Position numbers and translations under genes: made by a program | Source: a virus | DNA length: 29,557 nt | Reading direction: 5' to 3' (one strand) | IMG/VR virus record: IMGVR_UViG_3300028550_000832 | Span: 1 to 29,557 of that record | Part shown: in pieces, positions 6,868 through 13,361 of the stretch | Layout: each line of letters begins with the position of its first letter | How positions within the stretch are numbered: position 1 is the first letter of the stretch | The notes under the pieces: generated by a model | Seen by the model: the letters and a program-made list of their open reading frames with translations, nothing else | Databases searched by the model: none | Told to the model about the DNA's origin: nothing

Positions 6868-7317
6868 TTAAATCTTTTCACCGCAAAGTTCGCAAACATC
6901 TTTAGTAATATCTTCTAAAGTATTGTCTTCGTACTTGTCAATATTAATATTGAAATCGTTATCGGTAAATCCTACATCTTTTAGCATCTCTTCAGGGAAG
7001 TAATTAATTAGCATATCGTCATCAAACTTCCCTCCGTTCTTATTCAGTCTAAGGTTAAGCTTCATCTCACTCTCTAATGGAAGATCTACCAAAGAACAAA
7101 TGACACTATCATAACCTAAGTCTTCTAAAACTCTAACCCTCTGATGACCTCCAACAATTATATTCTCTCTACCTTTGTAAGTGTTTACAACAATAGTCTC
7201 AACAATACCAAACTCAGTTAATGAATTCTTTAAATCCTTATACTCTTTCTTTGTGATAATTCTAGGGTTATACTCAGCAAACTTTAATTCACTTATCTTT
7301 CTACTTTCAATCTTCAT
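6868..7317 (-). CDS. ParB N-terminal (ParB/Srx) domain protein
   Basis: A 149-residue protein with the ParB/Srx fold signature: an N-terminal ISELKFAEYNPRI, then EFGIVETIVVN and the phosphate-binding GGHQR motif near residue 60, then a segment typical of the phage subfamily (LVDLPLESEMKLNLRLNKN). The C-terminus carries half a zinc knuckle, CELCGEK. I chose the ATG at 7317; a TTG nine bases earlier is possible. The start overlaps the upstream gene's end by 11 bases. ParB-like domains in phages are linked with DNA binding, nicking or methylase partners. Next to the HNH and terminase genes a DNA-processing role is plausible but unproven. Confidence 0.75.
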   Translation of the reverse strand: MKIESRKISELKFAEYNPRIITKKEYKDLKNSLTEFGIVETIVVNTYKGRENIIVGGHQRVRVLEDLGYDSVICSLVDLPLESEMKLNLRLNKNGGKFDDDMLINYFPEEMLKDVGFTDNDFNINIDKYEDNTLEDITKDVCELCGEKI

Positions 7318-7681
7318 ATCCTGCAAGTACTTCTCTTAGTTCCTTAATCGTTTGAGCTACACAAGAACCACATTTAGACGCTTGCTTATTCATTCCGAAG
7401 ATTTCATTGTATAGTTTGGTTACTCCGATGTTATCGTTGTGCGTAATCTTATCTGTACCTATTTGATTTAGTAATCGTTTCAATATAGATAGTTGGTCTT
7501 TTGTAAGGTCGTTCTCACGTTCCCAGTTACCTACTGGACATCTAGTAAATGCTATCTTTGCTTTGATCTTCATAAAGCAACCGCACTTCTTGCATTGGCT
7601 TAAAGACTTACGAAAGTGAGGGCAGGCGTTGCATAGACTTATCCTCTCATTGTAAGTTCTATCACTTGTCTTTAACCTCAT
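7307..7681 (-). CDS. Zinc-finger protein of a Bacteroidetes phage family
   Basis: A 124-residue protein with an N-terminal four-cysteine cluster, CNACPHF and CKKCGCF, followed by TRCPVGNWE, and a C-terminal SKCGSCV preceded by TKLYNEIFG. The two parts resemble a zinc ribbon and a helical module that I have seen together in Flavobacteria phages next to the sigma-like gene. The overlap with both neighbours (20 bases upstream, 11 downstream) shows one operon. It may help the sigma factor or bind nucleic acid. Function is unknown. Confidence 0.65.
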   Translation of the reverse strand: MRLKTSDRTYNERISLCNACPHFRKSLSQCKKCGCFMKIKAKIAFTRCPVGNWERENDLTKDQLSILKRLLNQIGTDKITHNDNIGVTKLYNEIFGMNKQASKCGSCVAQTIKELREVLAGYED

Positions 7682-9667: not shown

Positions 9668-9819
9668 TTCTTTAGTTTTAAAGTTCTCTTATTGCATAGA
9701 TGAATTACGCCTCGATTACATAGAAGATAAACACCCCAACCATCTGTTTTATGTATATTTCCTTCTATCTCTATTCCGTTACTCATTCCACATACTCCAA
9801 TAGCTTTATATGTTTTCAT
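9664..9819 (-). CDS. Small protein (51 aa), unknown
   Basis: ATG at 9819 overlaps the upstream stop as ATGA, and its own TGA overlaps the VRR-NUC start as ATGA. This double coupling is strong evidence for a real gene. The product (MKTYKAIGVCGMSNGIEIEG, then WGVYLLCNRGVIHLC) has three cysteines and looks like a small beta protein. No family recognised. Confidence 0.65.
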   Translation of the reverse strand: MKTYKAIGVCGMSNGIEIEGNIHKTDGWGVYLLCNRGVIHLCNKRTLKLKK

Positions 9820-10517
9820 GTTTTTTCGTTTAATATTTCAATCGCTTGATCTCTTAGGTTTACTTTTCCCTCTTTTAATTCTGCGTATAGTTCGCTTATT
9901 AAATGCTCTCTGCAAGCCGTATCGACTTTGTACTTAATCGTTGTTGAATATCCGTTATCTTGTTTAATAGAACCTCTTAATTTTCGCCTTAATGCTGCTG
10001 CATCTTCTGGAGTTATATTAATAAATCCATTTTTTGCGAACCATTCAAACTGCATTTTAACGCCTGACATTTGAAATTGATTGCCAAACCTATTCTTTGG
10101 CTCTTCAAAATTTAACCACTCTTCGTACTTGGTAACTACCACGTTCAATACATAATCTTTATGATCCGCAGACCTATCTGTATTAGCTGAATTGTATTCA
10201 ATTTGAATAGCTTGCTTTTCTTGAAACAACTTATTGATTTTAAGTCCATTCTTTTTCTTACGAACGTTCAGCCATATAAACCATGTCTTTGGGTTTACTG
10301 CATACTGGTCACCTGTACGAACACCAACTTTAAAAGCACTATCTACATCGTCATAAGTCATTGTGCTGAATGATTCTATTAAGTCATTGCTTAGTATGTT
10401 AGACATTATACTAACATCAGCATCGTTCTTGTTTTGGCTTAGTTCAAAGAATGTTCTTCTTACTAAGTTGCTGCAGAATATTAATAGCTCTGAGGTTTGT
10501 TCTTTTCCTATTTCCAT
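9816..10517 (-). CDS. Conserved early protein (233 aa), unknown
   Basis: A soluble, mostly helical protein. The segment TYDDVDSAFKVGVRTGDQYA followed by VNPKTWFIWL resembles a motif I have seen in uncharacterised Bacteroidetes phage and mobile-element proteins (a helix, then the phrase around a Phe/Asn-Trp pair). The end is helical (REHLISELYAELKEGKV). It overlaps the methyltransferase stop by one base and the next gene by four. The position between the methyltransferase and the nuclease suggests a DNA-related job, but no catalytic motif is visible. Confidence 0.6.
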   Translation of the reverse strand: MEIGKEQTSELLIFCSNLVRRTFFELSQNKNDADVSIMSNILSNDLIESFSTMTYDDVDSAFKVGVRTGDQYAVNPKTWFIWLNVRKKKNGLKINKLFQEKQAIQIEYNSANTDRSADHKDYVLNVVVTKYEEWLNFEEPKNRFGNQFQMSGVKMQFEWFAKNGFINITPEDAAALRRKLRGSIKQDNGYSTTIKYKVDTACREHLISELYAELKEGKVNLRDQAIEILNEKT

Positions 10518-11194
10518 TAGTCGAATATTGTAGATTGATTCACGTTTGCTTGACGATGTATTCCAAATGCAGTTTCTAAAATTGTTTTACCTGCTTCGTA
10601 GTCCACTAGGTTGTTAGATATTTTTTCTTTTGATTGTTCCCCTTTATAAGTACTTAAATCAATTTCATGAAAAATACAATTTATTAAAATATGTCCTTTT
10701 TTTCTTTTATTATTAGCATTTATTGGAGGCGCTTTTCGTTCTTTTAAATCGTTAGGCAAATTAAAATTAGTCCAATATAAATGCCTACCTCTTTTCTTTC
10801 CAGATATTAAAGGCTCATAATAAGGTATTACATTTTCAACAACATATTTACCCTTAAAAAAATTATCTATAAAAATAATTTCCTCATATAATTTCATGTC
10901 AGGAAATTTTATTTTAATATTAACTCTATTTTTAAAAGTGTAATTTAACTTACTATGCGTTGGGCATGGAGGACTTGACCAAATGAAATCAAACTCTTTA
11001 TAATGGTCTAGTAAGTATTGATGTGCATCGGCTACTATTACAATATCATTTGGGAATCTTTCCTGATACATCCTAGCAAGCTCTGGATCTAATTCAACCG
11101 CAGTAACTTCTAAATTGTCAGCTACTTCATCCCACTTGTAGCGATTGCCACCTAGACAAGCATAAAGGTTTAGTATTTTGTATTTTGTTTCCAT
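10517..11194 (-). CDS. DNA cytosine-5 methyltransferase
   Basis: Transfers a methyl group from S-adenosylmethionine to cytosine in DNA. Motif I is seen as LNLYACLGGN (9-17), motif IV as SSPPCPTHSKLN with the catalytic Cys77, motif VI as ENV (120-122), and motif VIII as RGRHLYWTNF (135-144). The late FGIHRQANVNQS resembles motif IX/X. At 225 residues it is short and its target-recognition region is small, as in phage-borne orphan enzymes. No restriction partner is present, so protection from host restriction or marking of phage DNA is likely. The central coding part (10620-10960) is richer in A/T than its neighbours, hinting at recent acquisition. Confidence 0.85.
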   Translation of the reverse strand: METKYKILNLYACLGGNRYKWDEVADNLEVTAVELDPELARMYQERFPNDIVIVADAHQYLLDHYKEFDFIWSSPPCPTHSKLNYTFKNRVNIKIKFPDMKLYEEIIFIDNFFKGKYVVENVIPYYEPLISGKKRGRHLYWTNFNLPNDLKERKAPPINANNKRKKGHILINCIFHEIDLSTYKGEQSKEKISNNLVDYEAGKTILETAFGIHRQANVNQSTIFD

Positions 11195-11239: not shown

Positions 11240-12085
11240 CTAATCTTTAGCACCAAATACCTTATTCAAGTCTAACGCTTTTACCTCCTGACCTTCCAAG
11301 CCAAACATCTCAGGGAAGTACTTTTTAGCTAGACTAACTGGTTCGCTTTTGTTTCCGTACTTAGGGCGTGCATTCTTAATCCATTTGTTAGCTGCGTACT
11401 TCCATTTCTTCATTGGATTCCTTCCAACTTTCCAACCTATATTTTCGTAATACTCAAAAAAGCTTTCGGCTTCATTCATATCATAAGCTTTTTCTTTAAA
11501 GTATATTTCTACTTCTAATAAATCGGATGGCTTATTTTCTTTAATAATCTTTTTAGGTTTAATATCTTCAACTAATATAAGCTCATTTGAGAGAGAGTGA
11601 GAATTTTTATTCTCTTTTGGCACACTCTTTATTATTGTATTATTAATTTTTGTATTATTAACTGTATTATTATCTCTTAACTTTAGTTGGGTAGGTTCTA
11701 CAACTTTAGTTGGGTAGGTATCTGTAACTTTAATTGTAGTATGTTCCACCTTAGTTGGGGTATGTTCCACTTTAGTTGTAGAAGGTCTAACACATATAGT
11801 AATAGTTCTTTTAATAATATGCTTTGTACCCTCTGCATAAGTCATTTGCCTATCAATATATCCTTTTTTAACTAGTGATGAAATAATAATACCTATTCTA
11901 GTGATACCAACACCAAAGAACTTCGCAAAGTGTTCATTCTTTGCAAAGCATTCTTTATGATTGTCTAAACTTTTAATCTCTACTAACACTAATTTTTCCA
12001 TTAATGTCAGTTCGTGACTTAACCAAATATCTCTAGGTATCCACAGACCTTCAAATGCTCTTTTTACTTCTATATCTTTACTCAT
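11240..12085 (-). CDS. Replication initiator with winged-helix N-terminus
   Basis: A 281-residue protein. Residues about 12-95 look like a winged-helix domain (PRDIWLSHELTLMEKLVLVE, then HFAKFFGVGITRIGIIISSL and a wing). Residues about 100-165 are a low-complexity, Thr/Val/Asn-rich linker. Residues about 195-240 show a helical module (ESFFEYYENIGWKVGRNP, KKWKYAANKWIKN) common at the end of phage replisome organisers. This layout, with DNA repeats coding the linker, is that of lambda O-type initiators, which bind iterons inside their own gene and recruit the host replication machinery. No helicase or polymerase gene is in the window, consistent with use of host enzymes. The function is inferred. 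Confidence 0.7.
   Translation of the reverse strand: MSKDIEVKRAFEGLWIPRDIWLSHELTLMEKLVLVEIKSLDNHKECFAKNEHFAKFFGVGITRIGIIISSLVKKGYIDRQMTYAEGTKHIIKRTITICVRPSTTKVEHTPTKVEHTTIKVTDTYPTKVVEPTQLKLRDNNTVNNTKINNTIIKSVPKENKNSHSLSNELILVEDIKPKKIIKENKPSDLLEVEIYFKEKAYDMNEAESFFEYYENIGWKVGRNPMKKWKYAANKWIKNARPKYGNKSEPVSLAKKYFPEMFGLEGQEVKALDLNKVFGAKD
11600..11678. other. AT-rich tract, candidate DNA unwinding element
   Basis: A strongly A/T-rich stretch inside the initiator gene, immediately beside the iterons. It contains TGTATTATTA three times (11636, 11651 and 11663). In lambda-type origins such a tract is where the strands open. Confidence 0.5.
11679..11786. repeat. Five iterons inside the initiator gene, candidate replication origin
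   Basis: Five imperfect direct repeats with core ACTTTAGTTG begin near 11679, 11702, 11726, 11747 and 11768. The first two share 18 identical bases (AACTTTAGTTGGGTAGGT). Copies 3 and 4 are each followed by GTATGTTCCAC, 21 bases apart. Spacing is 21-24, about two helical turns. Copy 1 lies in a different reading frame from copy 2 (coding TQLKL instead of PTKVV), so it is the DNA and not the protein that is conserved. Confidence 0.7.
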
Positions 12086-12091
12086 AAATAA

Positions 12092-12370
12092 TTAGTTTAT
12101 TACAGTTATATATCTACATAAAATGAACTTCCCACACTCACTTATATCATAATCAATATCTATAAGGTTTAAGTTTTTTAGTACTATAATCAATGCTTGT
12201 GCTTCTACCATATTTTTAGCATAACCCTCACTAACTATCTCATAGTTTGTAAATGTAAAGTATTCGAATTCATCACATTCATACCTTACTAGATCTAATA
12301 GTTTAGGTAATTTCATTGACATAATAACAAATTTAACCAAATCTGATGATTGTTTTTTTTCTTCTGACAT
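12092..12370 (-). CDS. Small early protein (92 aa), possible winged helix
   Basis: The frame is open from 12478, but its first 36 codons are the terminator hairpin at 12389-12432, so the ATG at 12370 (MSEEKKQSSDLVKFV) is the supported start. The product is helical, then ends in two strands (LIDIDYDISECGKFILC and RYITVI). It might be a small wHTH or an adaptor for the initiator encoded 7 bases downstream. No family recognised. It is the first gene after the tandem terminators. Confidence 0.55.
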   Translation of the reverse strand: MSEEKKQSSDLVKFVIMSMKLPKLLDLVRYECDEFEYFTFTNYEIVSEGYAKNMVEAQALIIVLKNLNLIDIDYDISECGKFILCRYITVIN

Positions 12371-12388
12371 AATGTAATATTTAGGTAC

Positions 12389-12432
12389 AAAAAAACCTAT
12401 CTCAGGAGGTAGAGGGCTCGCTGAAATAGGTT
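12389..12432 (-). terminator. Strong terminator, second of a tandem pair
   Basis: In transcript orientation AACCTATTTCAG, a 15-base loop, CTGAGATAGGTT, then T7. The 12-bp stem has one G-U pair. The loop contains CCTCTAC, which can also pair with GTAGAGG at 12465-12459. Confidence 0.85.
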
Positions 12433-12485
12433 CTTTTAAAAAAATGTTGTAAGTATCGCCTCTACTCGATGGCTGCAATATACAA
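12389..12485 (-). ncRNA. Candidate small structured RNA between tandem terminators
   Basis: The 80 bases between the two terminators contain no supported gene. A TATATTGC element near 12487-12480 could be a -7 box, but its -33 partner is poor. The predicted transcript would end at the 12389-12432 terminator. GTAGAGG (12465-12459) is complementary to CCTCTAC in the terminator loop (12415-12409), so a pseudoknot or an alternative antiterminator fold is possible. It may be an sRNA or a leader of the downstream genes. Confidence 0.3.
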
Positions 12486-12579: not shown

Positions 12580-12888
12580 TTAAAAGGGCATACCATCACC
12601 AGATGGTTCTTGTTCAGGTGTAGATTCAACACCTGCAACCTTCCAAGCTTTTAAACTCACAAAGTGTCTATTATTCCATTCTCGACCGCTTATGTTTATA
12701 TCAATATCGTAAGACTGACCTACTTTTAAGTCTTTCGCAATCTCTATTCCTTTATCTTGTATAAACTCTATCGGAACATCAGCATCGTATTCAACACCCT
12801 CTTGTTTTAAGATAACCTCTTGCTTTTTAAATGTGTCAGAAATTACTTGGACTTCTTTAATTGATACTACTTTACCTCTTAATTGCAT
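12580..12888 (-). CDS. DUF3127 OB-fold protein, SSB-like
   Basis: A 102-residue protein. Residues 1-80 form an OB-fold pattern (LRGKVVSIKEVQVISDTFKK, then VGQSYDIDINISGREW and FVSLKAWKV), followed by an acidic tail ending GDGMPF. DUF3127 proteins are widespread in Bacteroidetes and their phages and look like single-stranded DNA binding proteins, with the acidic tip of SSB (DDDIPF-like) mirrored here by SGDGMPF. Its place between the DnaA-like gene and the initiator supports a role at the phage replication fork. It overlaps the upstream gene by 10 bases. Confidence 0.8.
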   Translation of the reverse strand: MQLRGKVVSIKEVQVISDTFKKQEVILKQEGVEYDADVPIEFIQDKGIEIAKDLKVGQSYDIDINISGREWNNRHFVSLKAWKVAGVESTPEQEPSGDGMPF

Positions 12889-13361
12889 GATTCTTTTAAT
12901 TTAATTGTTAATGATTTTTGTTCCTTGATTGATCGCAATAATAGTTTTGTATTCTTTTTTATGTCGAATATCTCTTCTTTAAGTTTTCCGTTCTGCTCGT
13001 GCAATTTCTCTATAACAGACCTGTTTTTTTCTGCATAACTTTCTTGGCTTTCAATTTCTGAGTCTGTATTCTTCGACATTAGTAAAACTAAATCGTCATA
13101 GTTCTCCATGTAATAACCACCACGATCATAAGCAATAGTATGGTTCTTTACTCCGTTGATGACTGTTGCATGACCTCTATTGAACTTTACACCTATCTCA
13201 GTTAATCCCCAAGCTCTTTTTCTTAGGTAGTGGAAACACATATTCCTTGCTTCAACATCGAACTGTTGTCTACCTACATCCGTTAACGATCCTACGAAGG
13301 TCTTATTAATACCTGCTGAATGGATTAATAATTTTTCAAATAATTCTTCTTTATAACTCAT
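12879..13361 (-). CDS. DnaA domain-IV-like DNA-binding protein with coiled coil
   Basis: A 160-residue protein. Residues 31-74 match the DNA-binding domain of DnaA: VEARNMCFHYLRKRAWGLTE, then IGVKFNRGHATVINGV, where NRGHATV stands for the DnaA signature GRDHTTV. There is no AAA+ ATPase part, so it cannot act as a full initiator. Residues 105-158 form a likely coiled coil (KLHEQNGKLKEEIFDIKKN). It could bind DnaA boxes or phage origin DNA as a dimer, to recruit or to block host DnaA. It overlaps the next gene by 10 bases and the previous by 4. Confidence 0.75.
   Translation of the reverse strand: MSYKEELFEKLLIHSAGINKTFVGSLTDVGRQQFDVEARNMCFHYLRKRAWGLTEIGVKFNRGHATVINGVKNHTIAYDRGGYYMENYDDLVLLMSKNTDSEIESQESYAEKNRSVIEKLHEQNGKLKEEIFDIKKNTKLLLRSIKEQKSLTIKLKESCN

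Follow-up and report, generated by a model that had tools for sequence, protein, structure and literature searches.

A putative replication origin inside the initiator gene of a flavobacterial-type phage, and the exchange of its iterons with the DNA-binding half of the initiator

Why does a series of direct repeats lie in the middle of a phage gene for a replication initiator, and are these repeats kept for the protein that they encode or for the DNA itself? The question is raised by IMG/VR record IMGVR_UViG_3300028550_000832, which was analysed whole (29,557 bases; hereafter the window). We consider it very probable that the array is the replication origin of the phage, located where its own initiator gene encodes the linker, with a DNA-binding domain that binds the iterons, an AT-rich tract that melts, a C-terminus that recruits, and a DNA-binding domain and iterons that are exchanged between phages as a cassette. 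The best matches of the window terminase are Flavobacterium phage 11b (56% identical) and Cellulophaga phage phi10:1 (52%), which point to a likely flavobacterial-type host and back the assignment to a Bacteroidetes phage made in a preliminary description of this DNA.

The initiator gene and its repeats

Pfam, PHROG and structure prediction together identify the gene at 11240-12085(-) as a replication initiator gene encoding 281 amino acids. The N-terminus contains HTH_36 (PF13730) at residues 25-77, above the curated cut-off (32.9 bits versus 25), and the protein matches PHROG replication initiation proteins with E values of 1e-16 to 1e-8. PHROG 186, a 'DnaD-like helicase loader', is matched at E 1.6e-8; Pfam DnaD has no match in the window protein, and one relative (L014) has a weak DnaD_N match. 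In the predicted structure a winged helix (residues ~14-100, pLDDT mostly 70-83) is followed by a linker that holds the putative origin (residues ~101-186) and is disordered by prediction (pLDDT mostly <30), and then by a C-terminal module that is helical in a low-confidence prediction and matches PHROGs of unknown function (15768 and 28809).

Five copies of the core ACTTTAGTTG, three exact and two with one mismatch, lie within this gene at spacings of 23, 24, 21 and 21 on the + strand. Iteron 1 (ACTTTAGTTG, 11680-11689) is read out of frame (TQLKL); iteron 2 (ACTTTAGTTG, 11703-11712) is inside the perfect dyad CAACT-TT-AGTTG (11701-11712); these are followed by iterons 3 (ACTTTAATTG, 11727-11736), 4 (ACCTTAGTTG, 11748-11757) and 5 (ACTTTAGTTG, 11769-11778). 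The core itself lies in a dyad, CAAC-TTTA-GTTG, that is perfect in copy 2. The repeats were thus found where the preliminary description had placed them, in the linker at a spacing of 21-24, as was its pair of copies 1 and 2, which have 18 identical bases in common, 23 bases apart, and fall in different reading frames (TQLKL versus PTKV). Nowhere else in the record does an exact direct repeat reach 14 nt at a distance of up to 60 nt, and in Markov simulations of the record (n=20) the longest such repeat was never >12. When codons were resampled from phage usage with the protein held fixed, five cores (≤1 mismatch) arose in 4/5000 resamplings and the 18-nt out-of-frame repeat in 0/5000. With both Tandem Repeats Finder and a self-shift scan, the two halves of the array took the first two ranks in the record. 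On the strict codon-shuffle test the window gene taken alone reached only 4/200 shuffles, which counts against the case; lambda O is similar (2/200, with the best segment on the annotated iterons 1-2). The earlier assertion that selection must act on the DNA was overstated as drawn from one out-of-frame pair, since a single pair could stem from tandem duplication; the claim therefore needed comparative data, and these support it (see below).

The iterons adjoin an AT-rich tract (11627-11686) that is a probable DNA unwinding element, on the C-terminal side of the array within the initiator coding sequence. Only one 60-bp region of the record is less stable than this tract, which, as previously described, carries three copies of TGTATTATTA, at 11636, 11651 and 11663 (spacing 15 and 12, in frame). 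GC skew along the record shows neither a peak nor a switch, and AT skew is likewise monotonic; this proposed check of the origin position is uninformative because nearly all genes lie on one strand. DnaA boxes do not cluster near the iteron array.

Arrays in relatives and exchange of the specificity cassette

Relatives were gathered from IMG/VR and GTDB genomes by profiles of two N-terminal types, where type A is HTH_36, as in the window, and type B (MSIKKLLSQNAFWQ...) has no Pfam family and likewise has a predicted winged helix. In the search of genome contigs a single protein query returned 0 matches and the profile query 47. Initiator relatives (L195, L197, L200-L202 and L216) also lie in Saprospiraceae, Aquimarina and Croceitalea genome contigs; these loci are possible prophages and may offer a route to a culturable test system.

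For 135 non-redundant homologous genes, each compared with 200 synonymous-codon-shuffled versions of itself (pass at ≤1/200), direct repeats beyond what the protein explains were found in 66 (50/89 of type A and 16/46 of type B), compared to 6/198 neighbouring genes used as a control. The periods of the arrays were 21 (13 genes), 22 (19), 23 (30) and 24 (2); the two other passing genes, with periods of 18 and 29, have N-terminal repeats that look like chance. Of the 64 arrays with periods of 21-24, 49 have a period of 22 or 23 nt and so are out of frame, and because approximately 65% of the best periods in the codon-shuffled null are multiples of three, this predominance is a mark of repeats at the DNA level. 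The preliminary description would have given way had relatives kept the amino-acid repeats while losing those in the DNA; the opposite was seen. Nearly all of the arrays sit just after the winged helix, and in 65 of 69 genes (9.8 expected) the 40 bp of lowest stability within the entire gene begin at the array's end, between -20 and +80 nt from it. No significant array was found in 69/135 homologues by this test, which detects ungapped constant periods only, and some of these genes may lack iterons.

Identical C-termini were found carrying either type A or type B N-termini. Between the window (A) and L001 (B, which shares its contig with L097) the last 75 residues are identical and N-terminal identity is 12%, and between L008/L018 (A) and L015/L101 (B) the C-terminal 75 residues are 100% and the N-termini 11% identical. 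The DNA of L008 and L015 is 96.4% identical up to the start codon, shows no similarity over the winged helix and iterons, and becomes similar again in the AT tract (89%). For the window and L001, similarity ends at the start codon of a small pre-initiator open reading frame (window 12368) and returns, with 94.7% identity, at window 11673, which is seven bases away from iteron 1. The block replaced in L001 (11673-12368, with identity resuming at both ends) comprises the small reading frame, the winged helix and the iterons. This reading frame (12092-12370(-), 92 amino acids, MSEEKKQSSD...) is absent from L001 and, when scanned from its longer upstream start, has no significant Pfam or PHROG family. 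In both pairs the iterons change together with the DNA-binding domain. The DNA borders place the ends of the exchanged unit at a start codon and at the last iteron, the AT tract being the joint that stays constant, so that the domain and its putative binding sites move as one. Judged from these sequences, the DNA-binding half and the iterons appear to be swappable between phages as one cassette.

A quantitative trend accompanies these exchanges. In a set of 45 type A genes, the more alike the winged helices, the more alike the iterons (Mantel rho 0.35, 0/999 permutations), a correlation to which the shared ancestry of neighbouring sequence contributes; mean iteron similarity is 0.95 above 80% winged-helix identity and 0.44-0.49 below 55%, against a shuffled baseline of 0.46. 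Variation of the iterons in concert with the winged helix, which had been proposed as a check, is thus borne out by both the exchanges and the correlation. Dyad symmetry at P<0.05 was found in 25/60 array consensuses (3 expected), for example TTAGCG-AAA-CGCTAA (L106, L012 contig) and TTTAGAATTCTAAA (L083), which suggests two DNA-binding domains per iteron.

The recognition helix may also be linked to the half-site. Genes with the helix RCSE (CxE) have TCG-containing half-sites in 10/10 cases and those with RCSQ in 0/5; contacts of Glu to C and of Gln to A are common in protein-DNA recognition. The association of CxE with TCGA is represented on the tree by one well-supported independent pair, and by three on the best tree, and because these independent changes are few it is kept as a lead, not proof. 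A broader generalization, offered tentatively and with a somewhat less than even prospect of being right, is that origin specificity is carried, in a large set of phages that are mostly uncultured, by a plug-in cassette, from start codon to last iteron, joined to varied helicase-recruiting C-termini via a constant AT-rich unwinding element, with a code in which CxE is paired with TCGA-type half-sites and CxQ with T/A-rich half-sites without CG.

Known systems and alternative explanations

In phage lambda (NC_001416, 39034-39118) the origin likewise lies mid-gene in the initiator O, its direct-repeat iterons precede an AT-rich tract in the same order as in the window, and the iteron spacing (20, 24 and 23 nt) is out of frame for the most part too. 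In lambda O the stretch of 40 bp with the lowest stability starts at nt 437, and the iterons end at 433. Lambda and Stx O provide the precedent for an origin inside an initiator gene and the model for its mechanism (PMC7466680). However, the iteron sequence differs, no P gene was recognised in the window phage, and the DNA-binding domain in the window is HTH_36. The lambda O family has no Pfam match to the window initiator at E up to 1, and O-like PHROG matches are weak (E 0.007 and 0.019), so that membership of that family was rejected and 'lambda-like' is an analogy. Of the architecture claimed in the preliminary description, the order of iterons and AT-rich tract therefore stands, whereas by Pfam the protein is not an O homologue.

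Two staphylococcal plasmids, pSK41 and pPR9, come nearest as precedents. In pSK41 the Rep boxes are central in rep, which encodes an N-terminal DNA-binding domain, a dispensable linker and a C-terminal recruitment domain; in pPR9 approximately 500 bp of a pSK41-like rep (N-terminal domain plus origin) are replaced by a phage-like PF13730 N-terminal domain, while the C-terminal domain remains >97% identical to pSK41-like Rep (PMC5703833). The pPR9 chimera is the same kind of cassette exchange as that seen here. These are nevertheless Firmicutes plasmids, pSK41 has RepA_N and not HTH_36, and its copy number is set by antisense RNA, a further difference from the window. The window protein has no Pfam match to RepA_N (PF06970) or to Rep_3, the iteron plasmid type (PF01051). 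Its fold matches the pSK41 Rep N-terminal entries 4pql/4pt7/5kbj weakly (E about 0.01-0.02), a PDB sequence search with the initiator profile gave only weak generic matches, and Foldseek with the type A and type B models returned generic winged helices, including pSK41 Rep, with no E <0.001; the structural matches were therefore not used as proof of kinship. The HTH_36/DnaD-like phage initiators (PHROG 270, 186 and 428), common in Gram-positive phages, share the N-terminal winged helix, and many of the relatives gathered have 21-23 nt iterons at the same place as the window; their C-terminal modules differ from that of the window.

There are several potential explanations for such an array other than an origin. 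One is neutral: tandem duplication or slippage may have produced the repeats in a linker that tolerates them, with no function as DNA. The predicted disorder of the linker, the 18 bases shared by copies 1 and 2, as after a recent 23-bp duplication, and the in-frame spacing of the AT-tract repeats (15 and 12) would all fit such a history, but it is very unlikely given that the position, the 21-23 nt period and the trailing AT tract recur with unrelated iterons and two classes of DNA-binding domain, that neighbouring genes seldom show arrays (6/198), and that dyad symmetry is in excess. Iteron-binding Reps often autoregulate, and the array lies in a transcribed region, so that the iterons could instead be an operator through which the initiator controls transcription. 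An operator in place of an origin is slightly less probable still, as the array lies ~310-410 nt inside the coding sequence, at a distance from the promoter-like TATATTG box that precedes the leader, adjoins a stretch that ranks among the least stable in the record, and follows the lambda order; an additional regulatory role beside that of an origin is possible. The least credible explanation, to which we attach hardly any probability, is selection on a TKV repeat in the linker protein. Copies 2-5 do all read (P/T)(T/I)KV, three of them spaced 21 nt, yet copy 1 is in another frame and matches copy 2 over 18 nt, and the 22 or 23 nt period of most homologue arrays is at odds with a repeat in the protein. 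Moreover, the linker is predicted to be disordered, and the equivalent region of pSK41 Rep is dispensable in the protein (PMC5703833).

The interpretation of the array as an origin is based on its anatomy, the out-of-frame conservation, the order of DNA-binding domain, iterons and AT tract, and the cassette exchange. By analogy with lambda O and pSK41 Rep, the winged-helix N-terminus would bind the five iterons, and the dyad symmetry of the core makes binding as a dimer probable; assembly on the array would strain and melt the adjoining AT-rich tract; and the C-terminal module would recruit the host replisome (helicase and primase), either unaided or by way of a loader from phage or host. Exchange of the cassette between phages would proceed by recombination at two points, the start codon and the AT tract.

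Neighbouring genes and implications for phage replication

Among the phage genes scanned with Pfam and PHROG, none could be assigned to a polymerase, helicase or primase family, in agreement with the earlier statement that the phage has no replication enzymes of its own, but this statement has to be qualified by an SSB-like gene at 12580-12888(-) (DUF3127/PHROG SSB-like protein), whose product ends in DGMPF, a sequence reminiscent of the SSB acidic tip. The gene at 12879-13361(-) encodes a protein of 160 residues whose helix-turn-helix is like that of DnaA domain IV (Bac_DnaA_C, E 3e-5, under the curated cut-off) and in which Pfam found no ATPase domain. Downstream of the initiator, the protein encoded at 9816-10517(-) is conserved at 78-91% in this phage lineage, has no family and no relatives outside the lineage, and is a candidate helicase loader by position only. 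The short C5-methylase-like protein at 10517-11194(-) matches its family over the first ~80 residues only; at this position L001 has another C5 methylase, one that looks full-length. A ParB-like protein (6868-7326(-); PHROG 620, E 1e-30) is encoded elsewhere in this phage record of <30 kb.

Upstream of the cassette lies a leader RNA (12385-12485(-)) with a promoter-like TATATTG, a 5' element ATCGAGTAGAGGCGAT and a terminator-like hairpin, the loop of which (CCTCTAC) pairs with the 5' element. Across nine sequences, 96.5% of cells pair and there are 11 double changes; the covariation (GTAGAGG/CCTCTAC, GTGGACG/CGTCCAC and GTGGAAG/CTTCCAC) includes a diverged copy in L254. Rfam searches of the whole window and of the leader found nothing significant. 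The leader is possibly an attenuator or a small RNA controlling the initiator.

An origin within an initiator gene and an exchangeable unit of DNA-binding domain and origin are already known as kinds. The additions made by the current study are a flavobacterial member, how widely the out-of-frame rule applies and how cleanly the cassette is bordered; few origins of flavobacterial phages are known, and none was found in the literature searched. The combination of repeats beyond codon shuffling, an out-of-frame period and an adjacent melting minimum can indicate probable origins from sequence alone in many uncultured phages, and the association between recognition helix and half-site is testable by single substitutions. 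The movement of DNA-binding domain and iterons as a unit, across two classes of DNA-binding domain, suggests how phages may change their origin specificity while the match between initiator and site is kept.
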